Assembly: GCF_032854445.1 (NCBI RefSeq)
Contig: NC_088301.1
Location: 46,867,116-46,931,115 of the forward strand
DNA from: Liolophura sinensis
Taxonomy: Eukaryota > Mollusca > Polyplacophora > Chitonida > Chitonidae
Length of the DNA stretch: 64,000 nt
Reading direction: 5' to 3'
Shown: one piece after another, positions 5,146 through 63,627 of the stretch
Numbering within the stretch: position 1 is the first letter of the stretch
Layout: every line of letters starts with the position of its first letter
Translations under genes and position numbers: made by a program
The notes under the pieces: generated by a model
What the model saw: the letters and a program-made list of their open reading frames with translations, nothing else
Database searches by the model: none
What the model was told of the DNA's origin: nothing

Positions 5146-8100
5146 TCAGGTCTTGCTTTTGAGATGATTAGGAGCATCAGCGAACATGTACTTGAGTTTG
5201 TAAGCCTCTGCTAGCACTTCGCCAATCTCTTCGTTGCCCCAATGATGTGTTGGCAGATTCTGTAGCATCATCATCAGACCCTTAAAATCAAAACAAAAGT
5301 TCTGGTGACAGAAGTGACAACTGTGACTTTTGCTTGTATGTTCACATATTCATTGCGTTGGTGTTTAATGTTCTTCTCGGGAATTTCCCACTTCTCCAGG
5401 ATTATTGGCCGGAAGAAACAAGAGTTCCCAGAGAAAGTCTGTGCCCCCAGTATATGACAAACATGAATGGACGTCTTGGCCAAAACCAGTGAGAGCTGGA
5501 TTCATGCCTGCCTTTTCGTTCATGAGGGGAATATCAGTTGCAGCTATCGGTAGAAGAAATTTTAACATTTAAAATATGTAACTAGCAAATTTTACTAGGT
5601 TTAGATAGAAAGAAATTAAGAAGGAACCTTTCCCAATCCAGCATAACATACTTTTCCAAATAACCCAAGCCTTTTCTATACAGCTATTTTATTGTTACCT
5701 GGAAGTCCTTTTCCCTCAGTAGATCTTTTGAAAAGCGAGCCAGAAAGGCAGCACAAACATAGAGGTGGAAAATGGCAAATCCATCCTGTTCAGACTGAAA
5801 AAAAAAGTAAAGCAATATTGTATATTAAGGTATGAATTAGCTTCCGCCAATGTGCACGTTAATGAAAGAAGATAATTTATCAACACAAATCAAGAGATTG
5901 TGTAACAGTTTTGTATTGTCGAAAATCATCCTATTCAGAGAGTTGACGCTAGACACTGTTTAAAGCACTCACCAAATAGGTATCCCAAAGTCTTATTATA
6001 CAGCGCAAGGGAATTTCTCGCATGAGCAAGTTGTTCATCCAGCGAAATGAAAATTGTAAGAACTCAACATGGTGCTTCTCCAGATGTGCATGAAGAGGTG
6101 CTGATCAAAGGAAACACAGACAAACGCTATTACTCAGTCTGTAGTATGATCTCATTCAATCCTGTTGCTGTTTATTAAGCGGTTAATTCATAATGACATT
6201 TCCAAATCAAGTTCAATAATTTGAAAATAACAGTTCAGGTGAACACAAAATACGCCCCCACAAATGCATTTGTTTGAAATGTATAAAAGAATACCAGCAG
6301 CATCACCGTGAGTATTATCCCTGATGGGAATCTTCATGGGTGTTGAATATAGATACATGGTTACCATGACAAATGTGTCTACCACAAACAAAAACTTAAT
6401 GCGGAAAACAGGTGAAGTTGTAGCCCGAACACGAAATGATTTCTATTTATATAGCACATATAAGGAAAATGGCTCTGGTTAACATGATAACGATGAAATT
6501 GGACAAATGTGATTCATGACACATCATCATCTGTGTATCTACTAAAACTCTATGTAACAAACTGTTGGAGTTATAGCCCGGACATGAAATCATATCATAA
6601 TGGTAATCTGGTAGCCATGACAACCGAGCCCATCACCATATGTTTATGAATGCATCCACCAAAAATGAAAAACAGTTGGACTTGGACAGTTGGCAGCCTG
6701 GACAAAAAATCATATTTACCTCTATAGTATATACAAGGAAAATGGCGATCTGGTAACCATGATGAAATCACGAAGTCATATCTATTTATATAGCATATCT
6801 AAGGAAAATGGCTATCTGGTAACCATGGCAAGTGCGGATACAAACAAATGTGAGTCGCGACTAATCGTCATCTGTTTATGTATGTGTCCACTAAAATTTA
6901 AAACTCTACCCTGAAATCACTTGGAGTTACACGCCGGTCACGAAATCATATCTACTTATCTAGTATGTATAAGGAAAATGGCTATCTGGTTCCCATCAGA
7001 AGTGCAGAAATGGACAAATGTGAATCGCAACAGATCATCACCTGCATGTCTATGTATTAACCAAAAATTAAAACTCTATGTTGAAAACTGTCAAAGATAT
7101 AGCACGCATACGAATTTGCGGGGGCATATAAAAATGTATCAGTCATTTTAAAAGGATGATTTGTTTACATTTGAGTCAACACTGAGCAGCTATAAATCAT
7201 TCAAACTGACACATATACTACTACATCCAAAGAAACTGCAGTTAAAATATTACGATGTAGAAATTTGAGGTTTCCTTGTTTTTTCTTATACTTGTTCTCC
7301 ACATCAGAACATTCAACTTTTTGTGAACAACGTTACTGTTTAGTTTTTGTTAGCTTCATGATTGCATCATTTTCTTTTCTTCTTTGTTTTTTAACAATAT
7401 CAGGATTTTTTCTTCTTTCCAAAAAATTATTAAACTGTCAGTTTTATCACATTTGGTACAACACTGCTAAAACTTCAATTATATATTCACCAGTCAAAGA
7501 CTTGACCACCCAGCTGTGTTGCTCATCATTTAAATAAATTTATGGAATAATAAATTCCAAATACCAGTGAATGAAGAGCAAACTTACCATCAATTCTTTT
7601 CATGAGCTCCTTTAAATCATTGACTTTTTGTTGGATCCCTGGCTGGGCAAATGTGTAGTTATCCTGGATTCCATCCAGCAGCTTCGATGTGCACCAAAAG
7701 CTGTCAGCTTCAATAATCCTTAATGTTTCTTCTGGTAGTTGTTTTAAATCACAGTTTTCCACCTCTACATCTGAAGAAATAAAACAAAACACAGCTCTGT
7801 CACTCACAAAATCCTGCAATGCAGTACAATTATCCTATGTTCATTACTTGTCAACAAAAAATGTAGCAAAATGTGAAAAGGTAAGTCAAGCTGAAGTCTC
7901 GTCTCTGGTCTCATCCGAAACCCATAACGGTCATACTGACAGAGGTAACGCTAGTCTACACTAATGTTAATACCAGGATTAACCTTCAATGCAGATTCTG
8001 TAGTGTTGTTAGCTTTGCATTCCAAATATCTGTATTATCTATAGATACACAAAATGCTCCATGACACTCAATATAAGCTTTTCCCTTTCCATCAGTCCCA

Positions 8101-11100
8101 CCCAGTCACTGTTCACGAGCACCTGACTGACCGGTAATTGACCTTCTTTATGCAGAGTGCAAAACGAAAAAGTAGCACAGTTCCATATTAAAGATTCTCA
8201 CAAGAAAGTACTTGAAAGGGGGAAATTTAATTAGTAAAGTTAGATACCCAAAGTTTGTGTCTCATGCAATCTAGAAATTGTATCAGAATTGACATATTCT
8301 ATGACAAAGATTTCATGGACTTTGAATACAAAGCATAAATGTCAAAAATCAATATGTAAACACCTATCCTTCAAACTGAGCGAGCAGAAAATATTATAAT
8401 AATAATTATATATAATAATATCTTTATTTATTGAAGGTAGCTTTGTCAATTTACAATGAAAATGTTCTCCCCCCAAGGCCTTCACAGAGAAAACAAATAT
8501 TTAGGAATCGAAACATGTACTTCAGAGTCCTATCAAAAATACATCAATATATGAAACAAGAAAAAACACCGTGCAGTTTGAAAAGTGAAGCTATATACAT
8601 TCTTATATACAAAAAGCAACAACACAACCAATAGTGCTGTTCCCGTCACTGTCCCAACCAGCAGAAGTAAGGTAGTGGGAAACTATGAAATTCATAAGAA
8701 TGTAATGCAACCAGTTTTACTATTTCCATGGTACTTACCATTTTTTATAAATTCTGACAAAAAGATGACAAAGAAAGGGGTGACCAGATCATTGATTCCT
8801 TGCACATAACCGCTAGCTTGATGGCGGTAGGCCCAGATGTACAGAATGCGCTCAAATATCTGAAACGGGCAAGTTGGTACGAAGGTAACAAGAACATGTA
8901 AAGAAAGAAACATTGTTAAAAGTCAATTAGGTACATAACAGGTTGGCCGTTTAATCAATTTTGCATATTTGTTTTTGATAATTTAATTCTTACATGTAGA
9001 TATGGCCATTCTGTGACTCATTTGCTAATGCCTTAGTCTTGTCACACTCAATCAGCTCTGAACGACATGGTCTCAAGCTCCAATCTGTTTCTCATCAGAT
9101 CAGGTGGATTTGGCAGGTATGTGGCAGTGGTTTCTTCCATCAATAAAGTTGATCACCATTGTTCAACCCCAAAAAGAAATTTATAAAGAAACATTTCACC
9201 TTATTTATTGTACTCACCTCCTGAACAACTTTCTGTTGAAAAAGTGGAATAAGAGGGTTCATCCTAGGTATGTCTATACTGATCTGAAAGGAAATAATAG
9301 AAACAAATCATATCATACAATCTATTTAAATACCTACAGTTGGGGAGATAACAAACTATATATTTAGTGCTTATTAAATTCAAGGTTAAACTATTCATGT
9401 AAAACTTACAGGAATTTCAATAATTAACTCAAGAAAATCACACCATTGCAGCCACAGAACTGCAGACAAAGAAATCTTGAAATGTTACCTTTACAACATT
9501 TCTATTTAATTTACAAAAGCATCCAGGTGAACAGTAACAATAAATTGAAGGACTGAAGGTTGAATGAGTACAGTCCTAAAATTTTCACAACCATTTTAGT
9601 GACCAAGTAATCTGGCATGCATACACTAATTTTTCTAATTATTGGGACAGATATTAGTACTGTGGAAAGCAGAATCCTGCATTTCTTTCCCATTTTTTTG
9701 GAAAAGTAAAGATATGTGTATGTTGTTCATTAAATGGTTTAACTATGTGAGAAAAAGGAAACTAAATAATCATGATACAGTTACATGTGTACCTAAAAAG
9801 AGCAGACTAGGTGTCCCAAAAACTAGAAGAAATAGGGTAATGTATATTTTCAACCTCTAATTTGAAGAAAATTTGACCAGGTACCTGGCGGAAAGTGTCT
9901 TGATAATTCTCTTGTAACCGGGTATCGTAATACTGGTCAATGAAGTTAAAATATTCCCGTCGTTTTCGTTCTAGTGTTGGGTTCCGCCTGTCTTCACTAG
10001 CAGGAACATAACCCTGGAAAGAGGAAAAAAATCACCCTAAAATTAACCATCACTCCACTTACTTTGGTTCGCGTGGTATGATTAGCCAGTGCAGAGTAGG
10101 AACATGTAAGCTGCAAAATGGGCAGGATGATTTCTTAGACTTTCTATCTTTCTACATAAATGTATCTGGCAAAGATTAAAGATCGAGTTCAGATTATCAG
10201 AATAACTCTATAATAAACTGTAACAGAATAAAGTCCAGGGGAAGTGTGTGATTTGACTAGTATTCAGCACAAAATAAAGGTTTCAGTTGGCTATTCCATA
10301 GCATATGCTAGTCACTTACAGCAAGAATCTTCCATGTTGTTGCTCTCATACACCGTGGTATACCAGACCAGCACAGTTTCCTCAATTCATCTAAACAAAC
10401 ACAGAGAGAAACTAGAGGAAGGGTCTTGGAACCAAACTACATGTACATGACTCATGACAAAAGTACATGACAAAAGTCCACCAATTCATAATTTCAAACT
10501 TCAAAACAAAATTGATTAAATTAAGCCCAGCAGTTCTGGATATATAAAAGGCTAGTGTCTGCCACAATGTCAAAAAAATACCTATACTGTTTCTAAGGCT
10601 CATGTCATGAAGTTTCATGACAAAAGTGGTGAATATCTGCAGATCAGTTCCTGAAATATCATACTGGCAATGTTTTGGTGGACACTGGACATCATACACA
10701 ATATGTAGGTCTTAAAGTTGAGGGGAGACATAATACACACAATCAGTGCTATCTAGGATTCTGTAGATTCTGCTTGTATGCAAACTAACATCAGCTCAGT
10801 GACAATGAGAACATTTTATTTTCTTTAGAGTTATAACCCAAATAAGGTAATATTCAAGATTTACAATTATTATATTATTCATTTCCTCTTGTATACATTT
10901 AGAAAAAATTTATGGTATTCTTTACAGACTGCAATCTTCTTGTATAACAGCCACATGCTGTTGTGATCCACACCTATTATAATGTGGATGTAGATATATC
11001 TTGATGAAAAACACATGCATGAAAATGTGTGGCATTGGTAATGAAGAAATTCTGATAATGAACTATACTTAAGTCTGTGTTTCCTGATAGCACAGCTTTC

Positions 11101-14100
11101 ATGCGTTCTAATTTTGTGGATTCTCTGTCTGGGACAGGTATCTGACCCAATCTTATATTGGTTGTCTTCACAGGTTTGTATCCAGCACTATTCAGACGGA
11201 CTCCTACCCCTGGACCCAGGCCAGGAGAAGAGGGGCCAAGGCCAGGGGAAGAGAGGCCTGATGGGACAAACCCTGCCTTATCTGTGGGCAAGAGAGATAC
11301 AAAAAATTATTACCATACTGAACTTGAATGTTTGACAAATATAAACTTGTAACTATGTTAATACAGAAAAAACAGAAGTAAGTTTAATACACTTAAAGTT
11401 AGATAACATCCCTATAATAAATTAGTAATACAATATTTCTTTCCTTCTTTCACTGTCATTTAATGCCAAAGTAATACAGTAATTTTGGGCTACACAATCA
11501 GACAATGAAAAGTACACTGCAATTGTAGTTCATTTGAATGATCCATTTTCCAACAATTTTCAATAAAAACAGTGACACATTCTGGTCTTAACTATCTTTC
11601 TAAGTATCAATACAGGTAAAATATCAACAAGCAATTAGAGCTTGTATACACATGTCAGCTGTATTGCATACCATTTGCTGAGCCTGCTTCAACCTGCTGT
11701 TTACTGTGGTGATCCAGAACTGCTTTCGCAGTAGACTGAACATCCCGCAAGGACATCTGCACGTTTGCCATACCAATAAGGTCATCATCACCATCATCCC
11801 AGGCATCAGATGTGGAATTAGCAAAGGCCACAAAGGAATCATTAGAACGGGCTTTTGTTTTGTCATCTTTCCTTGTGTTTTGATTCATATGTGTCCTAAA
11901 AAAACAGTGCACAAAAACTTTGAGGAAAAAAAAAGAAGGAAAACTCTTAAATGTCCATATAGTTGGACACTGAGCTATTTGGTGTGGTAATATTGTAGAG
12001 CAATGTGTACTACCACAGGTCAGCTGCAAGAGGCCACTATGTATTCAGGATTTCCTGAAAGTCTGCCCTCTTTTTGGTTAACACACCACAGCATGGATAC
12101 CCAGAGCAAGGTATAGTTTTTCCTTGTTTCTCCTTCTTAGGAGCATTGTAGTTTGTTGACAAAAAAATCACAAACAATTATAACATCTTGCTACAGGGAC
12201 AATAACCAGTTTAACTTCCCGTATAACTGATCTGAGAGTTTTCTTTTAAGTTGCAACAATGTTTAATAGCAATTATGTTCTTCCTTAACTTAAACAACAG
12301 TTTGTTTATAAACTGGAAACTCATATGAAGGCTTTATTAAATCCATCAGGCTGTGTGTTTCCATTTTCCGTGGCTCAACTCTGTAATTTTACCATTAGCC
12401 ATAGAGACACTCCTTAACTCATTTGGAGCAATCACTGTATCTTTTCACTCAAAGCCCTAAGAATTACCCCTCGCCTCTCATCGCAACAGATCTCACATGT
12501 AAGTCTTCATGAGTATTCCAACTTGACTCAGCATGATATATCAAGACATTAACACCAGTGGTAAATTATTATGTATCATCTTAGTATCACTGGAGTAGTC
12601 CCCAGGTTTCTTCTACCTGAAAAGGTATAATCTGGGATCACACTTTCCTAATGGTGGGAAAGGAAGGATGAAACTGTACTGCTGACATTGTGCCTGCAGC
12701 CAAGTCTAGATGGAGCATGCATGAAGACTTATGTTTAGAAATTGTTACGATTACACATGGAGGAAATATGTGTGGACTATAGGCGAAAAGATCTGTCTGG
12801 TCTGAGTAAAGCAAGCAGTATCTCTTTAGCTTATAGTAAAAGTGCAGAATCGAGCCACAGAGATGCACGGGTTTAGGTGACAGTCACATGTGGCATTTAC
12901 CAAGGAATAACAGGGACAGCATCACAACTGACCTCAACGAATTTTGAAGTATACATGTAACTTTAACATCCACATTTATTACAAAAAGTAAAATGACAAT
13001 ATAGACTCTTACTCTTGTTGTCTATCTTGTATTGGAGGATGCTGGGCACCATACACAGGCTTTATACTACAATACAAATTAAACCTCATGATTAATACTG
13101 AGCTTAGTACTTGTAAACATACCTGTAGTGTAAGATACATATAAGATACATATTGTATAGGAAATTGTTACGGAATATAGTATAACCACTACAAAAATAT
13201 AGACTATATTGTTCTGCCATTCCACTTATGTGGTACTGACATAAAATTAACAAGTACTGTCTTACTATCATACAAAATTTACTGACAGTGAAGGTAGGAT
13301 TTCCTGGGTTAAATTCTTCAGCTAATGTCATGCTGAGAAGAACAATTGTGGCATAACTAAAATTCAGCTGAGGGTAGGCATATAATCCACTTGCCTCATT
13401 CTTAATTTCAAACAAGCCAATCAATGATCCAAGTATGTCTAAAAATGCCATACTACTGAAGTATACTGATTGGCTGCATGGCTAGTTCTAATCAAAATAA
13501 CTTGCATTTAAAAATGTTAAGAAGAAAGCTCTAAATGAATTAACCAGGCGAAAGTAATAATGTAGACAGATAAAAGTAATGGTTCTTTAAAACAGAGAAC
13601 ATGTAAAGGGACTGCAAGCTGGCTTCGTGAAGTTCTTCTGCAAAAAAATAACCATGCCAAGGAAAATGGTGACTCTTTCCATCTCCATTCAGCAAAAGAG
13701 CGCAATTGGTCATTTGTAACAAAGCTGTTTATCAAAATGCATCCTATATTTTTACTTGACAATCAAAGTTCGCAAATAAAAGACCCATTGTGAACTGAAA
13801 TCTGAAGCATTTTCCTTGCTATGGTAGTTTTATGCTGAGAATCGATTTAAAAATGAAAAGTTTTAATCTGCAGTATAGTTCCGAGCCCATTCAAGTGTCC
13901 ATCCTGTTTTTAATTACATCATGAGCCTGCAGCATGTTGATGCCTACAATGTTTCTGAAACCCTGTGCATGGGTCAGCCAAAAGACAGCAATGATTGACC
14001 AGAAGGTTACAAAGACCGGATTTGCAAGGGGTCACATACCTTAAATAATCAACAAATTTAACCAGTAAAGTACCACAATCGATGAGATTTGAAATCATTA

Positions 14101-16191
14101 TTTACAGGATTTGGAAGACTAAATGTATTGTTCACGTAAAGGCACTTGTGAACTTTACAGGAATTATAAAATAAGTCTGATACATTCATGCTATAAGGTA
14201 CATTCTCACTAGATCTGTGGTCGAATTTGTTGAGGATTTAAGGAATTACAAATTTCAAATTTCAACGATTCACATTTCAAGCTATCCAAAAATAAACAAT
14301 ATGTCACTGTTACACAATTTAACATCATTTCGGATCCATTTCTTTGATCGGATAAAAGAAAATCATGACCTCACATGATGGCCTGGGAAGCCCTGTCAGA
14401 TCTGGACTGCGAACCATTACAATCCATCTTGCAATCCAATCCAGCTAGCAATTCTTCAATCCGTTCAAAGAAACAGAAGGGAAAACAATGCAATTCTTCA
14501 TTTTTGTCAATTATTCGTTAGGCTGGCCCATTATGTTAGTATGGCATTTCTAGGCAGAGTTGATCCAAGTACACTGAGTGACTGTTGGATATGCCATATA
14601 CATGGCTGTTCAACCTACAGTCAGAGACGAGTGCCCTTGTTTAAATGGTGGGACACAGATGGCAGCCTGAATAACAACTCCAAATATCTCTAGCTGGTCA
14701 CATCCACATCATAACATCTCCCCATCCAATTGCTGCACAAAGTCTGGTAATGATAATCCAATAAAGTATCGTTTCAAGCGTAAAATGTCTGGTCACAAGA
14801 CCGGGTCATGTGAACACTTGAATTGTCACCAACAGTCCTGGACTCATTACAAAATTTTGAATAGCGATTGAAATTATTCCTCATCCAACATTCAGTGCAC
14901 TCTTGTTGCGGAATGTAACTCTGAAATCAACCAAAGTGTTGGCAGAGTTACAGGGAATAACTGCTTCTAATATGTCGGACTGATGCTAAGCCACATTTAC
15001 CACAATTTTCCCTGGCATAAATAGATGTCAACCAAGAGGTCCCCATAATCAACTAACCTGTTCTGAGTCTAGCCGAACCAAAAACTATCCATGGCAACTG
15101 CACAAATTCACAAAATAAATACATTTTCAGAAAATACATCCACTCTGGCCTTAAGCTGTCTGTATCCATTTTGATCACTTGCGGGAACGAACGAGACTGA
15201 AGCGCCATCTGACGACAGGGGGAGTGAACCAGTCAAATAGACGACTAGGCTTGCCAAGTGTAAAGATTCCCACTCCATGGTATTATCTCCATTGAACAAT
15301 CTTATTTTTATCTAGGCTCACATTGATCACATGACTTGTAAGCTTGACTATCAGAATGTGATGGCAGCCACAGTGGGTAGTGTTTAAAAATGTATTTATG
15401 TTGTCAATTTGTGCAGTTGTCACGGATCATTTTTGGTTCGGCGAGTCAGAACATGTTAGTCGAATATGGGAACCACTCGGTTGACATCAATTTACGCCAG
15501 GGAAGATTTAATCCGCGTGCGAAGATACAGTAAATTTGGCTTACCATCGATCAGACATATTAGAAGCCATCGATAAGACATATTATTCCCCTAACTCTCC
15601 CAACATTTCATGTTGATCAATTTCAGAGTTACTTTCTGCAACTAAGTGTACTCGGACTTAGGCAGAGTATTTGGGGTAGTCAATTAGCAAAGATTCTACA
15701 TACTATCCCTTTTAAGTGACATTAAAATCACACCCATGAGTTTAAAATCCTGGACTAAAAGTCTATAAATTAAGAGAGGACGATTGTGGCATTTTCTTAC
15801 TGTCGTGCCATCTTCAGTTCCATGGGGCTATGTTTAGGCCCACAAATATACGTAAACACAGCCCCACATACTCAGGACAGGGTTCCATATAATCATGTAC
15901 TTTGGTTGTTTAGATATTGAACCGACATGGCTACTATAAAACCATTTACATTGTATACATTCTGATCCAATAAAGCCTTACAACTTTCACATATGCAGTA
16001 GTCCAAGTTCAACCTGACGGAATACAGACAGTGTAATATGATCCGGCAGTGTAGTTGTTGTTGTAAAATGTGTGACGTTGGACGCCCTCCTTGCCAGGAC
16101 CGGGCACTCACCTTCCCGGGACGTTACTGGATTTCTTCCAGAAATTTGACTTCGAGCCGTCTTTCACTCCCGCGTTGCTTACAGCAGACAT
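5146..16191 (-). CDS. TBC1D22: TBC1D22 family Rab GTPase-activating protein (complete, 12 coding exons)
   Basis: Coding exons in transcript order: 16112-16191, 13013-13066, 11672-11895, 11069-11281, 10320-10390, 9885-10013, 9218-9283, 8739-8859, 7588-7770, 5973-6100, 5699-5794, 5146-5280. All boundaries are GT/AG, every phase joins, and the total is 1500 nt (499 aa plus stop), close to vertebrate TBC1D22A/B (about 505-517 aa). The N-terminus carries the family VYGAQHPP motif (exon 2) and a TSDAWDDGDDD acidic segment (exon 3). The TBC domain runs from about residue 192 (WSGIP at 198-202) to about 455. Both catalytic fingers are kept: Arg264 in IDIPR and Gln299 in SGYVQG. FRWMNNLLMRE and YTFAQPGI are diagnostic of this subfamily. 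Family members are Rab GAPs linked to the Golgi and ACBD3. Exon 4 encodes a diverged Pro/Gly-rich linker (SSPGLGP repeated). It is head-to-head with RPP14. Confidence 0.97.
6330..7110. repeat. Degenerate tandem repeat, ~135-160 bp units, in a TBC1D22 intron
   Basis: Blocks such as TATAAGGAAAATGGC, CTGGTAACCATG, GGACAAATGTGA, TCATCATCTG and AAACTCTATG recur in the same order about five times, with one shortened copy near 6735-6812. It lies in the intron between the exons at 5973-6100 and 7588-7770. The 67-76 codon frames here are the repeat itself. Confidence 0.7.
14875..15665. mobile_element. Large imperfect inverted repeat in TBC1D22 intron 1
   Basis: The left arm (about 14875-15130) and right arm (about 15385-15665) are reverse complements over some 250 bp with mismatches and small indels. 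Shared blocks are CAATTTGTGCAGTTG, TTTTTGGTTCGGC, GGTTGACATC, GCCAGGGAA, GACATATTAGAAGC and TTTCAGAGTTAC. About 255 bp of unrelated sequence separates the arms. No transposase is visible. A non-autonomous foldback DNA transposon or an old inverted duplication would both fit. Confidence 0.7.
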
Positions 16192-16735
16192 GGCTCCGGT
16201 TTTTGGTAAGCGCCTTCTTCTGAGTGCATCTTTACTTCAAATCATAGCGAAGATACAATTGCAGCTGACTTCCTTCTTCGAAAGAACACCGGAACACATC
16301 AAAAGCATATATTGCGATTTTTGCATTATGGGATACTTGAAACGTCGTCTTATTTGGTGGTTACCATCCAGAGATAATGAAGTTGTGGTGTCAAATTGAA
16401 CCGGATATGATGATTCAAGATACTCCATACTCGCTTACCTCCCCTGTCCCTATGTCGCATTTCACGGACCGTTATCGTTATTGTATGAATTCTCCAAGAA
16501 TAACCGCAATGATTTTCAATAATCAACATTCTGGATTCTTTCGGGGGACAATAAATCCACACAGAGAAAGCAAAATAAAAATGACAGAAAGGGGTCCGCC
16601 ATAGACGGCTCTTGTTCCACACCGATCAATGACATAATACACTTCCTGTGATACTGGCGCCGCCTATAAAACTACAACCGTGGAGTTTTGTAGAATAAGT
16701 CAGAAGAAGTAATGTTCATGTAGGTTTGCTAATAA
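16192..16735. promoter_or_regulatory. Probable bidirectional promoter of TBC1D22 (-) and RPP14/FAM32A (+)
   Basis: The interval separates the TBC1D22 start codon from the likely RPP14 5' non-coding exon. It holds an ETS-type CACTTCCTG near 16636 and a GC-richer GGCGCCGCC near 16657, in an otherwise AT-rich region. A good donor (GTAAGT at 16736-16741) could end a 5' UTR exon that splices to the acceptor at 17413-17414. Transcription starts are not determinable from sequence alone. Confidence 0.45.
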
Positions 16736-17422
16736 GTAAGTTTGATGATGGATATTTCCCACATATTATTCTGTTGACGATGTGAGAAACTATGGCTTCT
16801 AGTATGGGCTAGTTTGGATAAATGGTTGGCCAGTTTTTCTGTCATCTTGCGGAGCATCATTTTCACATTGCTAGTTATGGCCTGAAAATACTACAACGAC
16901 AACTTCTGTGTGTAGCTACGTGCACAAGACTAGTACTCAACTAAAAGGACACACACAGTTTTATAATTAGTGGGCTTTAATAATTGTTCACAAATCTCTT
17001 TTTTTTTTCTTACTGCTTTTCTCACGTGCACACTTCAAAAGATTTCTTATGTACCACTCAAGACAGACAAAAGAAGTTTTCACCTTAATTATACCAACAT
17101 ATTCCTACAGTGAGAATTGAATATAGTTTCACAACACTAACAAGGGGCTATTTTGTTGGCATCCATGCTCAAAGGAAACATCTGAATGATTTAGGTTTTT
17201 GTTATTTAGACTGGTGGTTTTTACTGATACCAAAAGACAATTTACATATGGCTCCAGTCGCGTCATATTACATAGGATATTGAACATAGCTTTCTGCTTA
17301 ATTGTATCGTCTGCATCACCCAATCCTGTTCAACTGATTACCGTAATGTAAGTGAAATATACTGTAGGATGCATAAAACATTAATCAAATATACAAATAT
17401 ACCTCTCCTTCCAGTCTTGGTG

Positions 17423-19969
17423 ATGTACAAGAGGGTGGTCATCAATAAGCCAGATTTCACCTATCTGAAAACCAAATTGTAAGTACAGTACTCGCCTCTA
17501 ATTTCACAGAATGATTTTTTTTACCATCAAAGTACCTTGATGTACGCTGTAATCCAGAAGGGAAATTACTTGGTGAAAAATCATGTGAATATATATTGTA
17601 TAAATGACCAAACATTGTGACCAAGAAAATTGCATTTGTAAATAAATGTGTTAACTTACCACTTTATATTATTAAAGTGTGTATGGAATACTATCTTCTA
17701 ATTAAACCTCAAAACTTCTTTGTAAGATCAGTGGAAACTTCAGAAATATTACTCTTCAAATTTTCTTGTTCTTGATAATTTGTTGTACCGATAATGTAGT
17801 GTAGTGTTTCTTAATAATTTCATGTTACGGTTATCATTTACAGAGATTTTGAAGAAAATACTGAAAACTTCACAATTGATGCCATCCTTTTCAAGTATGT
17901 GGTAAAACAAGCAGTTGGATTTGTCTTTGGAGAGGTATTTGTAAATTTTTATCCAGAGTACAGTCAGAGTGGTCAGTTTTTTTACTTTTTCTTATAATCT
18001 TATACCAGACTTCGTTGATGATGTCCTTATTAAGTATGGGGTCAAATAAATGTTCTTAATCAGTTCGTAAACTATTTATGGTAATTTTATACAAAATCTT
18101 TCATTGAGACCAAATAATAAAAAGATTTCTACGTGTACAGTTTTTCAGTGAAGTATCCATTTTTTTTTGCAAGGTGCACAGGTTTTCTTCACATAATGAC
18201 GTTGCAAAGATTGGACTTTTCAAATAGTTTTCTCTCATGAAGAAACATCTCTGCTGCTGTGTAAATAGTTTTGCAGAGGCGGTCACTGTAATAAGTGTAA
18301 ATTTTTGAGTAAGGCATCTGACAAACGTAGACTAAAGACTGTAGCTATTGAGGTTGACATGTTCTTTGACACCTTAACTCAATATCATGTTTTATTCGAC
18401 AAAGTACATGTACAATCGAGGTTTGCTTTATCTTAAATGCTGAAATGTATCGTGATGTGTGATGCTTGCTAAAATCTTTTTTTAAAAGACCTTTACATAG
18501 TTATATGATTTCATACTGTAATTGTGATTTTCTGATTCCCTGTATATCTCTTTCTCCACTGAAGGAAAGTGTGATTGTGCTTATCCAAAACATATCGCCT
18601 GTCATTCACGTTCTAGGTTGGTGGTAGTCTAAATGTTGATGTTTTGAAATACTCAATCAAGGAAAGAGAAGCAATTTTAAGGGTCCGTACAAGGTGAGCA
18701 AATGCAAATGTTTCAGGACAAAAATACTCAGAACATAATGAATAACACATAATCGAGAACTCAAGAACTGTTAATACTTGTTGTGGAAATTTTTCTTATG
18801 GGAACAAAAAATTCCATATAGATTAGCTGTAGAAACATATTAGGGGTAAGGTATGAAATCTAATTTAAATGTAGAAACAGCTACACAAACTGCTTAGTTC
18901 TGTTCTTTATAATTGAAAACATGCAGGTCAACGAACACTAAAACCATTCATTTACCATTAAATGATGACTGACTTTCTGTTCACAGTGCCGCTGTGCAGT
19001 TGCAGAGTGCATTGAGCCTATACAGTTCATACAAGGGAAAGTTGTGTGCATTCCACACTTTACAGGTCCGAGCTAAACTTCAGACACATTATAGGTGTAA
19101 TATTTGTTAATTTGAAAATTAAAAAAAAGTTTATATGAAAGTTGAACTCCATGTGTGCAGAAGCATTGCAAAATATCTTGGATAAAAAAAGAATCAAGAT
19201 AAATTAATATTCCGATCATATCAGAGCTGATTTAAATGTGGTTTAAATAAAGCTGACATAATGAGGTTAATCATTGAGGTGGAGGAGACAAGACAGGAAA
19301 AGGATTTTTCTAGCCTTTAAAATCCACTTTATTGCTATCTTGCAATATTAAGAATTATGTTTTGCTAAAGCAAGTTTGATTGAGAAAGCAATATTGTCAT
19401 CACAGAGATAATTTTTACTTGTTATGCAATAAAATGATTAGCATAGAACACCAGGAAGAATGTTGTTTCCTATGTTACCTGTCAGATAATCAGAACTGAC
19501 TTGGCTCCCTTATCTGTACAGGAATGATTAGTGAATGCCATGTTTAACCAATCGGCAGGTGTTGCTGGTGACAGCCAGAGACGCTGTTTTAAATGAATGA
19601 GTGAATGAATGATTGTGGCTTAATGCCCAATGACACTGGTTCGAAACCAAAAATCGAAACAGAAAATTTGTTGTTAGTGACTACAGGCAGCCAAAAGCTT
19701 GTGTGGTCTCATCTTGCACTAATGTGGCGTTCTAGTCAGTATGCCACACACAGGAAATGTTGTCAGCAATTACCAATGGTTGATTGATGTAGTTTGCCAT
19801 GGGAACTTCTGTTTTCTCTTCTTGTAAAACTGAATGTGATAGTATAAATGAGAACTTTTCTGAAAATTTCATTTAACAACAATCAGGTCAATAAATTAAC
19901 TCATTTGAATTCCAGGTCTCTCCACATTTGATTTCTTTGGCTGTTAACAGTCGACATATTGACGTGTAG
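17423..19969 (+). CDS. RPP14: Ribonuclease P/MRP protein subunit p14 (complete, 5 coding exons)
   Basis: Coding exons: 17423-17478, 17844-17934, 18617-18693, 18987-19065, 19916-19969. Phases join at every junction, giving 118 aa plus stop (human RPP14 is 124 aa). Family features in order are YKRVVINKP at the N-terminus, AVGFVFGE, LNVDVLKYS, REAILRV, SSYKGKLCAF, then VSPHLISLAVNSR at the end, all aligning block by block with vertebrate RPP14. The product is expected in RNase P and RNase MRP in the nucleus/nucleolus, in tRNA 5'-end and rRNA processing. ATG 17423 is the first in-frame start in its exon; an upstream exon could in principle add residues. The donor after exon 4 is CAG|GTCCGA, weaker than the others. 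The last exon continues directly into FAM32A, as vertebrate RPP14 mRNA continues into HTD2; no HTD2 frame was seen here. Confidence 0.93.
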
Positions 19970-19996
19970 TGTGAGATTGACTTGTGGGTTAAGGAA

Positions 19997-20362
19997 ATGT
20001 CAGACCCGTACGGTAGTGTGGCCTCAGGATCCCTGAAGCTTAAGGGAGTGTCTGATCACAAAATAAAGAAAAAGAAGAAGAGGAAGGACAAAGAGCTAAA
20101 ACAAATGGTAGAGAACACTGTCAAGGAGGATGGAGACAGCCTACAGGAGGGTTGTTCTTCACAAGTTGTAGTGAAAAAGGGGTATGTCGACAAGCGAACG
20201 AAAGCAGAGCTAGCTTTTGAGAGGGTTAAGCAAAAGCGCCAGGAAGAGGAGATCCTTGAAAAAGCAAGCAAGACTCACAAGGAAAGAATCATGGATTTTA
20301 ATCGACATTTAGATAACCTAACAGAACATTTTGACATTCCCAAGGTCAGCTGGACGAAATGA
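19997..20362 (+). CDS. FAM32A: FAM32A-like protein, second reading frame on the RPP14 last exon
   Basis: This is an uninterrupted 121-aa frame. The start ATG (19997) has G at -3, and ATG rather than the upstream in-frame TTG is chosen because MSDPYGS...LKLKGV matches the family N-terminus. A basic stretch follows at residues 22-35 (KIKKKKKRKDKELK), then DKRTKAELAFE, ASKTHKERIMDFNRHLD, and the nearly invariant C-terminal EHFDIPKVSWTK. Human FAM32A is 112 aa. It sits in the late human spliceosome, where its C-terminus reaches the active site and helps exon ligation. The frame starts 27 nt after the RPP14 TAG, in the same phase and with no intron visible between them. Vertebrate FAM32A is intron-containing as I recall, so this could be an ancient retrocopy or a lineage-specific intron loss. 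Its conservation argues that it is functional. Confidence 0.95.
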   Translation: MSDPYGSVASGSLKLKGVSDHKIKKKKKRKDKELKQMVENTVKEDGDSLQEGCSSQVVVKKGYVDKRTKAELAFERVKQKRQEEEILEKASKTHKERIMDFNRHLDNLTEHFDIPKVSWTK

Positions 20363-20660
20363 TCAATCATTATTGATTCTCAGTCTGGGGTGAACTGGAA
20401 AACATTTACTTCCATTATAAAGTGTTCATGAAGAGAATATCTCATCATTTGCCTGAAGAATATTCTCTTTTATAATGAATCATAGGCTACATTCATGAAC
20501 ATGATTTTTTGAACACCTTACTTCACTGAAGATGAGAACAAGAGTTAGATCTCCATGCTTGAACAGATTTGGTGGAGAAAAGTATTTGCTGCTTATGAAA
20601 GATGCATTATTATTGTATTTTAAATACCCTATATGAATAAATATATAAGACAGTCCTACT
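20363..20660 (+). terminator. 3' UTR with poly(A) signal for RPP14/FAM32A
   Basis: An AATAAA hexamer at 20636-20641 lies about 275 nt after the FAM32A stop, and a second lies at 20787-20792. A stem-loop can form at 20413-20476 (AGAGAATAT pairing with ATATTCTCT, extended by CATTATAA pairing with TTATAATG around a bulge). No other poly(A) signal lies between the RPP14 stop and FAM32A. Confidence 0.6.
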
Positions 20661-23440
20661 TGTTCGATGATGATCGATGTTCCATTCAGAATGTGTTAAT
20701 GTTTTGTTGTGGGATGAAGACAGTCACCGGTAAAGGTGTTCCTTGATGTGAAGGGAAGGGATGTCTTCTCCCTCAGATTTTACCCAAATAAAATAAGTAT
20801 GTACACTTCAAGTTCAAATTGTTTTGATGGTCTGCTTCGGTGTAAGGCACAGTCGTACTATTCTTTGCAGTTAAATGTATAAGTACAAGTGATAACATGG
20901 TGACGCTTTAGGTTTTCTTGTGCGGAATTTTACTCACTGTGAACCACGATTTCTTGGTTCTTATGCTAAATCACAAAACTAAAAAGGCATGCTTTTCAAC
21001 CTTTATCTGGGATACTTTATCGATCCATATGTACGTGTGGTCTGGAGATGTCTTGCATTTTCTGGAGGGTATCGCAAAAAGTATTGCTTTATTGAGCTCA
21101 GGTTGCGCATACATGCGAACAATAACATGATAAGACTGTACGCATTATTTATGCTATGTGTGCATATTAATCACGGTAAATAATAAAAATCATGACTTGC
21201 CATCTTGTGCTACGGAAATATTTGGATCAGTCTGTATAGCCTAGTAGTTAGAGGCGCTTGTCTTTCAATCGCCAGGAACACGAGGTTCATCGCCGGTCTT
21301 GCATGGGCACTGACTGTGTGGGGTCGTGTTGATAAGTAACCCGTGACACTTCTGAGGCCGTTTGCACAACGTAAATGTTCTTTAAAGACCACTTGTCCAG
21401 CAATATTACGTGCATATGTGTAAGTCATTTGTTGGAAATGTCATTGGTTGTCCCCGGGCACTCCGGTTTCATCCTCCCGTGAAACTGGGCCAGGGTGGCA
21501 TACGAAATTACAACTCTAATTTCCCGACTCTGCATCTCTTGTTTTGTAAATGTTCAAGTGTTGGGTTGAAGTGTTTCGTACAGGCAAGTTCTTTTGTAGC
21601 CAAAGCTAAGTTACAGATAAATGTAGTTCAATCCATGAACTGCTCTACAGTACATTTTTATAAGGTCACGAGACACAGTTTTTGCAACGAAAACTCTTTC
21701 ACACGAACAAATCTTTGAATAGATTCAACTTTTATTGTTCGCCTTGGTGCACATGGGTGATCGAAAGTCTACGATGACCTGATTGTTTGTCGTTTTGTTG
21801 GCAAAGATATGTAATATTACATATATAACATGTTGAATTCGATTTGTATGAATAAGTTTCGATATTAAATACTTATTACTTTTGGAAGGGCGGGTAAAGA
21901 TGCCATGTTTAAATAAATTAAGATTGTGAAGTAGTTCATAGTGTCCTTATCCACGACTAATGATTTCCCGCGTGTTGTACATGATGGCTATTTTCTTGAT
22001 TTAGGTCGTGACTGTTCACTTGCAAATTTAGTACATTTTCCAACTCTGACTCGTAGGACATTGGTGTCGAAGGCGCCCACATGTTCGTTTGTGTGTGCAG
22101 TATAACATTCTTCAACCAATGTTAATTGTTAGGTGGTTTACCAGGGCGCGCCGGGACACTCCACCCACCTACAAAAAAAATGGTCGCTATCCCCTATTGG
22201 TAATGCGTTAAACAAGAATCAAATAAATAGATAGTTGTGTATTTCTGACTTCAACACGTGTATTATTCACTGTGATGAGATGTTTATCTCCATATATGGT
22301 TACCAAAAGTGAAAAATTTTCGAGGCATGCCTAGACATTAAATTTAAGTGCGTTCTTGTTTTAACAGATTCGTATAGGTGTGCCGACTATAATCTTCATC
22401 GGAAGCAGGCCGGAATGTCACTTCTTGTGTATATGTATATATATACACATATATATGTTCTGTGCATGAATTTTATAGGCAACTGATTTTATGTCACTGG
22501 TTTAATGATGTAAATAACAATAAAATGCATGCACAAGTAATGTTTCACAGCAATGATGATTCTGAATAACGGAATAAATTATTATGACTTGGCGCCACAT
22601 TGGCAATATATAAGCCATAAGCTCTTTGTAGTAAGATCTTTTTCAGAATGAACCCTTTGAACTAGAAAACGTTTTTGTTGTTATGTGATCACTGCAGAAC
22701 TGAAATTCAAGCACTATAATCCATATGAGTATACATCGTCAAGATACAAACCTGTACCATTAGTTTATATAGATTATTAAATAATTGGTGATAATAGGTC
22801 ACGTGACATTTTCATTTCCGTTTCATTTTCTCGAGAAGTTTATCCTAAAAGGAACCCAATTTGACCGTTTTAGATGTACCTTTGTGCGCTGAATCCATTA
22901 CCGGAAATTTCAAGATTTTAGCGGAAGTTTTTTTTTTTTTTTTTTTTTTGGCGAAAGTTCACACAGACAACACCGTTTTGTAGGTTATTTGCCATTCCTG
23001 TAAAATACATAGTGTTCATCCTATTTCCGAATATCCGCAATTTTGAAGAAATCCCATTTTTCATCCCCTGCTAACCTGCAATTTGCAATATGCGACAGCC
23101 CATAAAGTGAGAAAATCAATTTTAACGAACCGGATGTGACATCAGACTTTAACGTAACTCGAAAACGCTTTGACCGTTTGTCGATCCGACCTGAGTGTAG
23201 GGCTCGGTTTGTAAACAGTATAGCCGTTGTGTATGGCCCGTTGTTTCCCTCTCCTTAAACTTTGCCCATAGAAAATGAAGCACTTTTAACACATTAGATT
23301 CAAACTTATGAATTCAAAAAATGAAGTAATGCGATATTGTTTTTCTGCTGTGTGCACAAAACTGAATGGCTTATATGGTTCGGCCGTTTTCCATTTCCAG
23401 TGGTTCCAGATGGCCTTTTCCCTTTGAACCTTCATCTCTT
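20661..23440. other. Gene-free stretch downstream of FAM32A
   Basis: I recognise no exons here. It contains an old tRNA-headed element (21223-21490), a self-complementary TA/CA-rich patch near 22425-22460 and a T21 run at about 22929-22949. A 28-bp block beginning TGATTTCCCGCGTG at 21961 recurs at 23932. Confidence 0.4.
21223..21490 (+). mobile_element. Degenerate tRNA-headed SINE
   Basis: A tRNA-like head starts near 21225: GTATAGCCTAGTAGTTAGAG as box A, TCTTTCAATCGCCAGGA in the middle, GAGGTTCATCGCC as box B. A body follows with CCCGGGCACTCCGGTTTC near 21450, which recalls the GGGCTCTGCCCGGTTTCC core of the 38.4 kb SINE. A related head lies on the minus strand at 42480-42590. Confidence 0.6.
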
Positions 23441-23442
23441 TT

Positions 23443-23690
23443 GCTGTAGCTCAGTTGCTAAGCGCGCTGGCGCAGCGCAATGACCCAGGAGTCTCTCACC
23501 AATGCGGTCGCTGTGAGGTCAAGTCCATCTCATGCTGCCTTCCTCTCCGACCGTACGTGGGAAGGTCTGCCAGCAACCTGCGGATGGTCGTGGGATTCCC
23601 CCGGGCTCTGCCCGGTATCCACCCACCATAATGCTGGCCGCCGTCGTATAAGGGAAATATTCTTGAGAACAGCGTAAAACACCGATAAGA
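23443..23690 (+). mobile_element. tRNA-derived SINE, V-SINE-like core (diverged copy)
   Basis: The tRNA-like head reads TGTAGCTCAGTTGCTAAGCG. The body shares CAGGAGTCTCTCACCAATGC, GGAAGGTCTGCCAGCAACC, GGGCTCTGCCCGG, ACCATAATGCTGGCCGCC and GCGTAAAACACC with the 38.4 kb copy. I see no clear target duplication or long poly(A), so it is older than the 38.4 kb insertion. Confidence 0.88.
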
Positions 23691-26600
23691 AGGTTAGGCC
23701 TACTATATGAGAACTATAAGATATTAAGCTAGAGTGCCAAATGCTACAGTTCTCCCTAGCGTGCAGAAAAATATAGATATTAATAAAACATGTAAAAGTA
23801 CATAGTTCTAATTGGGATGGGGTGGGGGGGCTACATGTACAGTTTTAAACTTCTGAACCTCATGATAAGACGCTGCAGTACAAAATGGTGTTCCTCATAT
23901 AGGGACGCGATTAAGCATTGTTACATGTATATGATTTCCCGCGTGTTGTACATGATGGCATGAACTATCGTCATGAACTCTTGTTTGCAAAATTCCGAGT
24001 TTGCGCATTGCTTGTATTTTCAGAGCTAGGCTATCTATTTTGTCATGGACTGTTCTCTTTAGTGTATAGTGTGCTGCATGTGCATTGTTCCACCAAGCAC
24101 GACCAAGCATGTTGCCCAGAAAAGTGGGAAAGCAGCGTTGACGCAGTGCGATAGGTCCTATCAAATACAAAATCGAATGGAGGCAAGTCATATATTTCAT
24201 GTACGGTTTGCACGTTTTGACTAAGGGGATAAATAAGAAGTATATATTGTAACTTTATGAGCTTCGTCAAAATCAGGAAAGCGAAGAGGATCGGATTTAT
24301 TAAAGATGGAATGGTTTGAGAATTCGAGATAATATCACACTAATTATAATTACGATTTCGACCCAAGGAGGTTTTAGCAGTAGACCAATACAGTGAGGGA
24401 ACTGTTGCTTTATTTGGTGCATGTGTGAACGTATATTAATGAAGATGTATCCATAACAGCTGTTTTAGGCCTTTTCACATCATTTGATTCGTTTGTGTTA
24501 TATTTTGTAAAGTGTTGACTACCAAAAATTTGGTTCGATCTTTTGCGGTAAATATCTTTTTTTTTTAGCTAACTTTTACAATATTCACAGAATTGCAAGA
24601 AGTCTTGTGAAATACTCACTAGTTGATGTTGTATTTATTTATTCATAACGAAAGGTTGAGCTGTGTATTGAGACTCTACATTGGGGTGCATGTCATATAT
24701 AACTGCATTAAACATGTATGCAATATTGGCGTGACGTAGAAATTTTGCTGGGTTGAAGTAGAGCCTAATCAATGCTTCGTGCACCAGGGACACATGCAAC
24801 TTATACACGCTTTCTCACCAGGCTGTTTTGCCTGAATTAGTTAATTTGGACGCCAGCCAATGCAGACGCCATGAATTCAACTTTTCTTCATCAGACCTGA
24901 TCTTGTCTACCCACGAATGGACGCGAGAGCAACTCAGCGGACTCCGCCACGATATGTGAGACATCCACAGCATTGTTTGCGATCCGCCTGTAACCCCAAG
25001 CGGACAAAGTTCACCGTGACATGGCTTTGAAGACAGGTGCAATAAAATTCCGCCAGACAACCTTAACGAGGGTAATTGAGGGTTCACTCATAACTAGAGC
25101 TAATATAACTAATGCACTGTGTTACAACGTGGTTGGCTGAGAGTCCATTTCATGGAAGGGTCTCGAGGGAGAACATTATATCATATATTTCCCCAGTATG
25201 ATCACAGTAATATGCAGAGGACATTCAGTGGGTGATGGTGACTGCCGATAACTCATTTAGAGATTTTGCTCGTTAAAACAGAACTGATTCAAAGGCGGCA
25301 CAAACACTTTGAGAAATGAATGAGTAAAGATCGCCGAAAGGAGATTACAGGGTGATGCCATATTACCATGCAGGCCTGTACGATATGTAAGTTAAAAAAT
25401 ATTAAAAACTGGTGCTTATGAGGAAGCGGGTCATGGTTGCTTGGTTAGGTCCTTGCGTTTCCGTTGCTAGGTCACCCGCGAGTCTTGGAATTCAATGTTC
25501 TCAGAGTCTGGTTGCCAAGAAGCGGTTGCCACCATCCATAGCCATCACTGTAGCCCCTGAGTGAAAATGTCTTGACCATGGGTTCAAACAACAATTAAAC
25601 AGTTATGTTTTAAGAACTGTATAAAATAAGATAATTTGTAAACTGCGTTTTTTTTGTATATGTTAAGCTATTTCGTATTTAGGTTACCTTTAGATCAATT
25701 GATATGTTTATTTGGTCGTTACTTTAGCCAAAAGCCTTAATTCAACAGGTAACTTTAAAACCTGATTCAAAAACTGGGTTTGAACTGCGAGCTAATTGGT
25801 CATACATGGTGCTAATAGCTACGGCGCGACTAATTGTTTGTTTTATTGAGCTACAGAGCATTGGCTAAATCAGTGTGAAAGATTAAATGTACAGGCATAC
25901 ATAGAGTAAAACAAGGGCCAGTTTCCAAAGCGATGTCGAGCTTTAGCTTAAAATCCAAATAAAACCTTAAATATATGCATCAAATCGATGAAGTTTTTAC
26001 CGCTGATTCTATGCTGTGGTCCTATAATCGCAGCCAAGGTTTTGAGCATACAGTTTAAAATATTTGGTTTTGTAAAAATGATTTAGCCAAAAATATCTTT
26101 CTGGAAGAGATCACAAACAGCGACGACATTGTGATAATAATGAAATAAAAGCATGTCCATTTCAAGTCCTTCCAATCCTAATCTGAGGATCTTTAACCAG
26201 TGAAATCCGCCCCCCTATCAGTCTAACGGAGGGTTTTATTTTAGTTGTTCATGTAATTGCCTGGTAGAAGAATTAGATTTTTAAAAAAAAGCTGTGATGC
26301 TAAGGGATCACGAAGATGCTCTTTCCTTCAGCCGAATCCTTGTTGATGCAAGTCCAAAGAGGAGCAGACTAACGACTTAGTGGAAAGCTACCCAGTTACA
26401 AAATTTGTATAACATTTTTGTCAGAAAAAGCATAATTATAAAGGTTTTATACTGGATTCTTTGTAAGTTCTCAGTTTTACCCGTTACATAATACGCTGCC
26501 AAAAATTCTTGTCTGAAGTAGAAAAAAAAACCGTGAAATTTTATGTTGTGTACATAATAATTGAATGGATCGATCACATTTAAGGCTATTATTTGTCATT

Positions 26601-38416: not shown

Positions 38417-38681
38417 GGGGCCTCCGTGGCTCAGTCGGTTAAAGCGCTAGCGCAGCGTAATGACCCAGGAGTCTCTCACCAATGCGTTCGATACGAGTTC
38501 AAGTCCAGCTTATGCTGGCTTCTTCTCTGGCCGTACGTGAGAAGGTCTGTCAGCAACCTGCGGATGGTCGTGGGTTTCCCCCGGGCTCTGCCCGGTTTCC
38601 ACCCACCATAATGCTGGCCGCCGTCGTATGAGTGAAATATTCTTGAGTATGGCGTAAAACACCAATCAAAAAAAAAAAAAA
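38417..38681 (+). mobile_element. Intact tRNA-derived SINE with 12-bp target duplications and poly(A)
   Basis: The head GGCCTCCGTGGCTCAGTCGG is tRNA-like (box A), with GAGTTCAAGTCC as box B. The body holds the GGGCTCTGCCCGG core and CACCATAATGCTGGCCG, then GCGTAAAACACCAATC and an A-run. The 12-bp sequence TCAATCCACTCG flanks it at 38405-38416 and 38682-38693, a clean target-site duplication. This places it as the youngest insertion seen in the window. The core resembles molluscan V-SINE families such as RUDI, an assignment from memory. Confidence 0.95.
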
Positions 38682-42590: not shown

Positions 42591-42689
42591 AATATCGCGC
42601 CCACTCCCAGTCTTGAAAAAACGAAAATTGGTTATGGAAATTCAAAATGTTATAGAGAACTAACGTAGGGGCTTAAAAGCTGAACTCGG

Positions 42690-43183
42690 ATATAAGGACT
42701 GATAACACTGTATTGGAATGAGAGCGAGGGCGTGATAATGCTGAACTGGGATATAGGGACTGATAACGCTGAACTGGGGTATAGGGACTGATAACGCTGA
42801 ACTGGGGTATAGGGGCTGATAACGCTGAACTGGGGTATAGGGACTGATAACGCTGAACTGGGGTATAGGGACTCATAACGCTGAACTGGGGTATAGGGAC
42901 TCATAACGCTGAACTGGGGTATAGGGACTGATAATGCTGAACTGGGATATAGGGACTGATAACGCTGAACTGGGATATAGGGACTGATAATGCTGAACTG
43001 GGATATAGGGACTGATAACGCTGAACTGGGGTATAGGGACTGATAACGCTGAACTGGGATATAGGGACTCATAACGCTGAACTGGGGTATAGGGACTCAT
43101 AACGCTGAACTGGGGTATAGGGACTGATAATGCTGAACTGGGGTATAGGGACTGATAACGCTGAACTGGGATATAGGAGTTTG
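42690..43183. repeat. 28-bp minisatellite
   Basis: The unit is ATAACGCTGAACTGGGGTAT plus AGGGACTG, 28 bp, in about 17 adjacent copies with few substitutions (mainly AAT/AAC and GGG/GGA variants). Because 28 is not a multiple of 3, all three frames are visited every 84 bp. The minus strand nevertheless stays open, giving a 140-codon frame with a 28-residue period. More diverged units continue at 43312-43580. Confidence 0.95.
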
Positions 43184-43311
43184 GTCCAGTTTCACAAAGC
43201 TCTCTTAACGTTACTAGCTCGCAACTACCATGACGACGTAATTCCTATGGTACCAGTTGCCGTGGTAGTCAAGTGAACTTGACGTTAAGAGTGCTCTGTG
43301 AAACCGGGCTC
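43184..43311. mobile_element. Foldback (MITE-like) element inside the minisatellite
   Basis: The left end GGTCCAGTTTCACAAAGCTC, then TCTTAACGTT, pairs with the right end AACTTGACGTTAAGAG, then TGCTCTGTGAAACCGGGCTC. The interior also pairs in part around TACCATGACGACG/ATTCCTATGGTA. The 28-bp units stop at its left edge and resume in diverged form on its right, so it inserted into the array. Its ends resemble those of the 35.7 kb element (TTTCACAAAG / TTCACAAAAG). Confidence 0.8.
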
Positions 43312-55860: not shown

Positions 55861-56282
55861 GAGTCTGATTTTCTAGAAACCTATGGCAAAAATTAAGAAT
55901 TCTTTTTTCACTTTTGAGGTATTTTTATATTTCTTAATAATCCCTACTAGACTCGGAAATTTCCGCATCAATGAATTTACTTGGAACACGGGACGAGCTT
56001 CGGACTTTCTCCACCTAACAAATTTGTTTTGACAGCTCTCATCGTTGGCGTCACTACAGCGGGCTACTTTATTTTCCGACTGTCTGCTGGGACCTTAAGA
56101 AAACTGTAGTATAAAGCTATTTTTGCGCCCTAAGAAGAAAGCTGAGAAGCTTTTTGAACATTCATATGTTAGGCCACTTCATATAATCTGTATTAAGAAA
56201 TCAAAAAGGCATTTCATGCACCCTTTAAGCAATTCTGATACTTCTGCAGACAATTTGCGGTCTTCTTTAAAATATTTGTCTA

Positions 56283-56338
56283 CAGATCTGTCAGAAGATA
56301 GATCTGTCAGAAGATAGATCTGTCAGAGGATAGATCTG
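56283..56338. repeat. 16-18-bp tandem repeat
   Basis: AGATCTGTCAGAAGAT is repeated three times with a fourth variant (GTCAGAGGAT). It lies in non-coding sequence. Confidence 0.9.
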
Positions 56339-63296: not shown

Positions 63297-63627
63297 CTGC
63301 AAAAGATTATTACAATAACTTTAAAACATTGTACTATTGCTGTAACAACAGATTACCTCCATAATTTTGAGATTTATAGATTCCTTACTTTTCTCAACAT
63401 ATTTATAAAAATAAACGTTTTAAAATATGTTAAGTTTCTCATTTACATACACATGTTGAGGTTTCTTGTCTCTCATGTTAGACTCATATTAATATTTATT
63501 ATTCATTAAGAGCATGCATGCCCCATGAAACATCTCCTGAATACAGAAATGTCCTCATATCACCAAGATTGGTAACTGAGCATGGGTTGTGGAAATTGTG
63601 TAAAGACCTTTGTCACTGTGAGTAGGT

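Follow-up and report, generated by a model that had tools for sequence, protein, structure and literature searches.

How is FAM32A made in the chiton Liolophura sinensis (family Chitonidae), where its complete coding frame begins 27 nt downstream of the RPP14 stop codon and in the same exon? The two frames lie in a window of 64,000 nt, the whole stretch of DNA analysed here, whose numbering is used throughout. The genome paper of this chiton (PMC11068029) gave the species as L. japonica, which was afterwards amended to L. sinensis (PMC12441733). An earlier, sequence-only reading of the window had proposed that both frames share one mRNA. The layout is real and unusual. Here, we weigh whether it reflects one transcription unit, and how a second protein could be translated from it.

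Two conserved frames in one exon

The RPP14 coding sequence is divided among five exons by four GT-AG introns, and the joined frame of 118 aa bears out a last exon with its acceptor reaching to 19915 and its coding part at 19916-19969, as had been proposed. The full FAM32A frame reported 27 nt past the RPP14 stop is likewise present.

17415-17478, plus strand: first coding exon of RPP14 (ATG at 17423; coding part 17423-17478)
17844-17934, plus strand: coding exon 2 of RPP14
18617-18693, plus strand: coding exon 3 of RPP14
18987-19065, plus strand: coding exon 4 of RPP14
19916-19969, plus strand: last exon of RPP14, coding part, with the TAG at its end (product 118/118 identical to P0121)
19970-19996, plus strand: intercistronic stretch of 27 nt, open and in phase between the frames, with a donor-like GTGAGA at 19971-19976
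19997-20362, plus strand: FAM32A open reading frame, 121 aa and stop, intronless (Pfam PF08555, FAM32A in the PDB, homologues)

Since an acceptor-like ...CTCCTTCCAG terminates at 17414, just 5' of the first coding exon, a 5' non-coding exon of RPP14 presumably lies upstream. At the other end of the gene, the TAG occupies 19967-19969 and the FAM32A ATG follows at 19997. As read from the sequence, a second conserved frame stands 3' of the RPP14 stop, on the same strand and with no intron between.

All 118 residues of the first frame's product agree with the NCBI protein 'ribonuclease P protein subunit p14-like isoform X2 [Liolophura sinensis]'. It matches the Pfam families RNase_P_Rpp14 (E 2.2e-08) and Pop8 (E 2e-07), and RPP14 in the PDB over residues 2-116 (E 7.4e-22). 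By its domain and near full-length similarity, the frame can be firmly assigned to RPP14, the p14 protein of RNase P/MRP. In NCBI naming, 'isoform X2' implies that a second product is annotated for the same gene. A second Liolophura RPP14 was found neither in one search, which gave one match in all, nor among the 120 of 278 matches listed in another, so this other product may be something different from RPP14, which is no more than a hint. The second frame matches Pfam FAM32A (PF08555, E 2.1e-10) and FAM32A in the PDB over residues 4-121, up to the last residue (E 1.1e-27). This domain and the conserved C-terminus allow an equally firm assignment to FAM32A, which is listed among the additional factors found in the C* spliceosome of humans (PMC11833078).

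Because FAM32A begins in the reading phase of RPP14, readthrough of the TAG would give an RPP14-FAM32A fusion of 249 residues. The distance of 81 nt from the beginning of exon 5 to the FAM32A ATG, and the nine codons between TAG and ATG that hold no further stop, would suit such a fusion. However, an in-phase start is expected in one of three cases by phase alone, and the junction at 19916-20010, which holds the RPP14 stop, folds no better than shuffled sequences (z -0.31). We regard a fusion protein as highly improbable, the most so of the explanations weighed here.

The last exon of RPP14 had also been said to run into FAM32A without any splice signal, which is too strong. A scan limited to GTRAG and YAG patterns finds the donor-like GTGAGA beginning at 19971 and an acceptor-like ...GCTGTTAACAG ending at 19950. 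In the latter, 11 of 17 positions are pyrimidines, exactly as many as in the acceptor used at 19915. Weaker YAGs end at 19969 (8/17 pyrimidines) and 20003 (5/17). Together with the tight same-strand spacing, the site at 19950 is what one might expect of an operon resolved by spliced-leader trans-splicing, in which a leader RNA is joined just 5' of FAM32A. Nevertheless, this site lies within the coding exon of RPP14, before the RPP14 stop, so that one precursor could not yield both mRNAs whole. Moreover, the leaders of Mollusca are merely putative according to a review, which places the phylum among those mostly never proven to trans-splice (PMC3795323). Trans-splicing is very unlikely to account for the arrangement.

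Candidate transcript ends and the CpG footprint

The main rival to one transcription unit is a separate promoter for FAM32A. RPP14 and FAM32A would then be separately started, overlapping genes, with the FAM32A promoter in RPP14 intron 4 or the last exon and with RPP14 ending after 20062 or 20636. The exon common to both would be an overlap, and there would be no working two-frame message. For a housekeeping gene, a start of its own is the usual state, which counts for this alternative, while the 27 nt between the frames favour one transcription unit because they give little room for a 3' UTR and a promoter.

The positions of possible poly(A) signals bear on both explanations. Their contexts are given as the fractions of U and of G+U over 50 nt starting about 10 nt past the hexamer, which are composition counts and not the output of a trained predictor.

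19890, plus strand: AATAAA in RPP14 intron 4 (downstream U 0.38, G+U 0.56)
20062-20067, plus strand: AATAAA inside FAM32A, a possible alternative poly(A) signal of RPP14, U-poor (downstream U 0.10, G+U 0.38)
20636-20641, plus strand: AATAAA, the signal at which the unit is likely polyadenylated (downstream U 0.38, G+U 0.60)
20787, plus strand: AATAAA, a second candidate past FAM32A (downstream U 0.34, G+U 0.58)

The signal expected after FAM32A at 20636 is thus present. That no poly(A) signal lies between the genes holds for the 27-nt gap, which contains no hexamer, but the AATAAA at 20062, 93 nt past the RPP14 stop and made up of FAM32A coding codons, had been overlooked. RPP14 could end after 20062, as a separately started FAM32A would allow. 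Of the signals at 20062, 20636 and 20787, however, that at 20062 looks the weakest, because the sequence downstream of it is U-poor.

Long-term germline methylation depletes CpG, and the CpG profile is used here as an indirect footprint of transcription units. In many invertebrates, methylation is mosaic and found chiefly within genes (PMC8549274; PMC3985014). The assumption of gene-body methylation is not absolute, since a study on oyster makes the case that methylation of promoters is relevant (PMC3985014). The observed/expected ratio (o/e) of CpG is 0.91 over 15900-16800, between RPP14 and a TBC1D22-like gene, 0.38 over 16900-20660 and 0.91 over 20800-24800. A two-state HMM at a stay setting of 0.995 delimits two blocks, the first of which includes the presumed beginning of the neighbouring gene.

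15886-16897, no strand: CpG-normal block (HMM state HIGH), putative promoter region from which the TBC1D22-like gene (minus strand) and RPP14 (plus strand) diverge
16111-16191, minus strand: putative first coding exon of the TBC1D22-like gene (frame begins with M, 27 aa)
16900-20656, plus strand: CpG-poor block over RPP14 and FAM32A, putative methylated gene body

We take the 27-aa frame to resemble the N-terminus of TBC1D22; this piece has no Pfam match. A further TBC exon frame matches TBC1D22B and TBC1D22A in the PDB (TBC1D22B, E 1.3e-17), and two frames of this minus-strand neighbour contain the TBC domain according to Pfam. We infer that the CpG-normal region between the genes is a promoter region common to the TBC1D22-like gene and RPP14.

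Is there a second CpG-normal region at the 5' end of FAM32A, as its own promoter would predict? Intron 4 is CpG-poor like a gene body (o/e 0.29), and the first half of FAM32A has an o/e of 0.24. In the 700 nt 5' of the FAM32A start, 7 of 112 C are in CpG, which fits the CpG-poor rate (P 0.39 for 7 or more) and not the fitted CpG-normal rate (P 0.00096). Nearer the start, the contrast with the CpG-normal rate is weaker (7/84 in 500 nt, P 0.023; 3/49 in 300 nt, P 0.028), and across all of 19067-20246 the fit to the CpG-poor rate is no more than marginal (15/176, P 0.051). When CpG-normal stretches of 400-700 nt were simulated at the FAM32A 5' end, they were detected in 37/40, 40/40 and 38/40 runs, but a narrow promoter could escape this test.

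The HMM gives an outcome that depends on its setting. The CpG-poor block is unbroken at stay 0.998 and 0.999, and at 0.995 it is interrupted only by an 18-nt call at 20188-20205 (P 0.52). At 0.99, 19952-20265 is called CpG-high, and at 0.98 the CpG-high calls are 19941-20276 and 18274-18465, the latter in intron 2. Two of the five settings therefore break the block at the 5' part of FAM32A, and a small promoter there would give the same calls. By contrast, the 3' end of the block falls between 20628 and 20659 in all five settings, adjoining the AATAAA at 20636.

We weigh the CpG-high calls at FAM32A as coding constraint, because four of its eight CpGs fall mid-frame, at 20188-20237, and because its o/e of 0.49 is near the 0.45 of TBC1D22 exon cores, which were hand-picked from frames and have approximate boundaries. 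Two other CpGs of FAM32A, however, lie close to where the frame starts (20007 and 20011), and the last exon of RPP14 has two at 19952 and 19963. With expectations for a fixed protein built on the codon use of two frames of the window, FAM32A holds 8 CpGs against 12.5 for a CpG-normal gene (P 0.078) and is not clearly depleted, while RPP14 holds 4 against 15.7, with 0 of 3000 runs as low. That FAM32A is less depleted than RPP14 is a point for a promoter of its own.

The o/e of RPP14 exons 1-4 is 0.18, far lower than that of FAM32A, and this counts against the coding-constraint reading.

Taken together, the CpG footprint and the anatomy of the locus tip the balance towards one transcription unit, which is the part of the one-mRNA proposal that is favoured here. 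We consider separate promoters an unlikely explanation, although the one that has to be taken most seriously. The single unit would be transcribed from the divergent CpG-normal region, at about 16-16.9 kb, to beyond the AATAAA at 20636. An RPP14 mRNA with these ends would carry the whole FAM32A frame in its would-be 3' UTR.

Possible routes to translation of FAM32A

On the two-frame mRNA, ribosomes would encounter several AUGs before FAM32A. The interval from the RPP14 start to the FAM32A start holds four out-of-frame AUGs, one of them with A at -3, which open frames of 8, 2, 4 and 2 codons and are followed by an AUG-free run of 215 nt. The RPP14 and FAM32A starts each have G at -3 and U at +4. 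With at least five AUGs ahead of FAM32A, and possibly more in the 5' non-coding part, efficient translation of FAM32A from the two-frame mRNA is disfavoured. Leaky scanning past the RPP14 start with restart at FAM32A is possible, and could perhaps supply a smaller share of the protein.

In the last exon of RPP14 itself, the 81 nt that lead up to FAM32A are free of AUGs. This would suit a promoter for FAM32A alone, but it would also serve a single unit: in a variant that lacks the RPP14 start and still reaches the last exon, FAM32A would be translated first, unless the leader holds AUGs. We judge such variants to be a more efficient route than leaky scanning with restart. We argue that most FAM32A could come from mRNAs of the same unit in which a 5' non-coding exon is joined directly to the last exon, because no AUG precedes FAM32A in that exon. 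Our best explanation, which we hold to be probable with considerable reserve, is hence one RPP14-FAM32A transcription unit that gives a two-frame mRNA, with FAM32A made mostly from variants without the RPP14 start codon. A working two-protein RPP14-FAM32A mRNA is plausible from the sequence.

We also considered selection for AUG avoidance before FAM32A, and rejected it. Dinucleotide shuffles do make the interval appear depleted (4 AUGs against 7.95 expected, P 0.043; terminal 215-nt run, P 0.005), but synonymous controls do not (P 0.80 and 0.90 for the number, 0.12 and 0.32 for the run). Internal Met is also absent from at least 47 of the 119 RPP14 homologues listed among the best 120 of 278 matches.

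Other animals and known two-frame messages

Vertebrate FAM32A has introns. The intronless frame of the chiton could therefore be a retrocopy inserted into the 3' UTR of RPP14, while another, intron-bearing FAM32A does the main work. Against this, the frame is intact and conserved, and the close homologue P0001 has the same length and is identical at 109 of 121 positions. No match bearing the name Liolophura is found among the 120 of 802 FAM32A matches listed, many of which are nameless, and 90% clustering can hide members, so that a Liolophura FAM32A could be a hidden second member of the P0001 cluster. A search of 17000-21500 for the repeats of a retro-insertion gave short pairs only, the longest of 26 nt at 73%. 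P0001 is one uninterrupted frame on three contigs of up to 11387 bases, which suggests that its gene is intronless too. We consider it very improbable that a retrocopy of minor importance explains the locus; a retro-origin as such is compatible with a shared transcript.

Is the pairing kept elsewhere? Mya arenaria has FAM32A (P0017) and RPP14 (P0196) on contigs of unequal length, 69,354,228 and 64,373,224 bases. The adjacency hence does not appear to be general among molluscs, and the 'lineage' to which the one-mRNA proposal referred would be narrower than the molluscs. Thirteen species, Mya arenaria as the sole mollusc and 12 fishes, are common to the best 120 of 802 FAM32A matches and the best 120 of 278 RPP14 matches. 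Compared by eye, their longest contigs are equal in size in none of the 13; Echeneis, Mola, Neolamprologus and Semicossyphus, for which a contig size is missing, were left out.

A FAM32A (P0018) and an RPP14 (P0122), both on contigs of 918 bases, were considered as a second two-frame transcript and rejected. P0122 shares 90% identity with RPP14 of the freshwater mussel Potamilus, whereas P0018 reaches no more than 57.5% with FAM32A of Sinanodonta, also a freshwater mussel, so they probably come from different organisms and the equal length is a matter of chance. No FAM32A relative in viral contigs was confirmed among 43 pattern matches, and no tRNA was found in the window.

Two conserved, unrelated full proteins from one animal message are still counted exceptional, and a 2026 abstract gives 14 mainly polycistronic human transcripts (PMC13303939). 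A literature search, with subscription papers mostly outside it, found no paper naming RPP14 and FAM32A together or FAM32A with 'bicistronic'.

Nested or overlapping gene pairs with a common 3' exon exist. They have the same DNA layout as the chiton pair, but a separate start of FAM32A would be needed, of which the CpG profile bears no clear sign. Other animal two-frame mRNAs include SNRPN/SNURF and GDF1/CERS1 (PMC4705651) and Drosophila Sloth1/2 (PMC9681215). As in these, two conserved proteins are proposed to come from one message, in the chiton on the strength of sequence only.

The closest comparison is the much-cited vertebrate RPP14/HTD2 mRNA, whose primary paper is reportedly that of Autio et al. 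2008. Two reviews describe RPP14 as its first frame and a second protein in the 3' UTR, an arrangement reported to be conserved over 400 million years (PMC4705651; PMC5932603), so the likeness drawn by the sequence-only reading is apt. In both, RPP14 comes first and a second conserved frame follows its stop in the 3' UTR. By content, the chiton pair is not a member of RPP14/HTD2, because FAM32A occupies the place that the mitochondrial dehydratase HTD2 has in vertebrates; the chiton frames also differ in being 27 nt apart and in phase, and the vertebrate message has expression evidence where the chiton pair is known from sequence alone. It is conceivable, at somewhat less than even chances, that RPP14 independently came to head a two-protein message in chitons, with FAM32A in the vertebrate slot of HTD2. 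If so, a single promoter would govern how much of an RNase P/MRP subunit and of a splicing factor is made, and the locus would be a warning that a conserved gene can go unseen where annotation assigns each transcript one protein. Another RPP14-first pair of independent origin would reveal whether a passenger gene is tolerated or even favoured at the 3' end of RPP14, and would put to the test whether function or only transcript layout lies behind the pairing.

Divergent neighbour and a further CpG-poor block

about 7500-16191, minus strand: TBC1D22-like gene
56129-63895: second long CpG-poor block in the window

The TBC1D22-like gene is divergent from RPP14, an RNase P/MRP subunit gene that starts ~1.2 kb from the putative first coding exon of this neighbour. 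Its gene body is CpG-poor, as in the RPP14-FAM32A gene pair. The second block is perhaps another methylated gene.

Repeated frames

23533-23844, minus strand: frame of type PALWWV[DE]TGQSPGE..HDHPQVA.RPSHVR
38513-38665, minus strand: related frame of this type
42650-43244, minus strand: frames in tandem repetition, type SVPISQFSIISPYIPVQRYQSLYPSSAL

That the first type is found twice suggests that the two frames are copies of an interspersed repeat. The tandem frames are a minisatellite-like stretch.

A coiled-coil-like frame

48163-49467, plus strand: one frame of 435 aa, resembling a coiled coil

The sole Pfam match of this frame was to GAS, weak and under the curated cut-off. Its C-terminal end is CVIM, which we take to be a possible prenylation motif.
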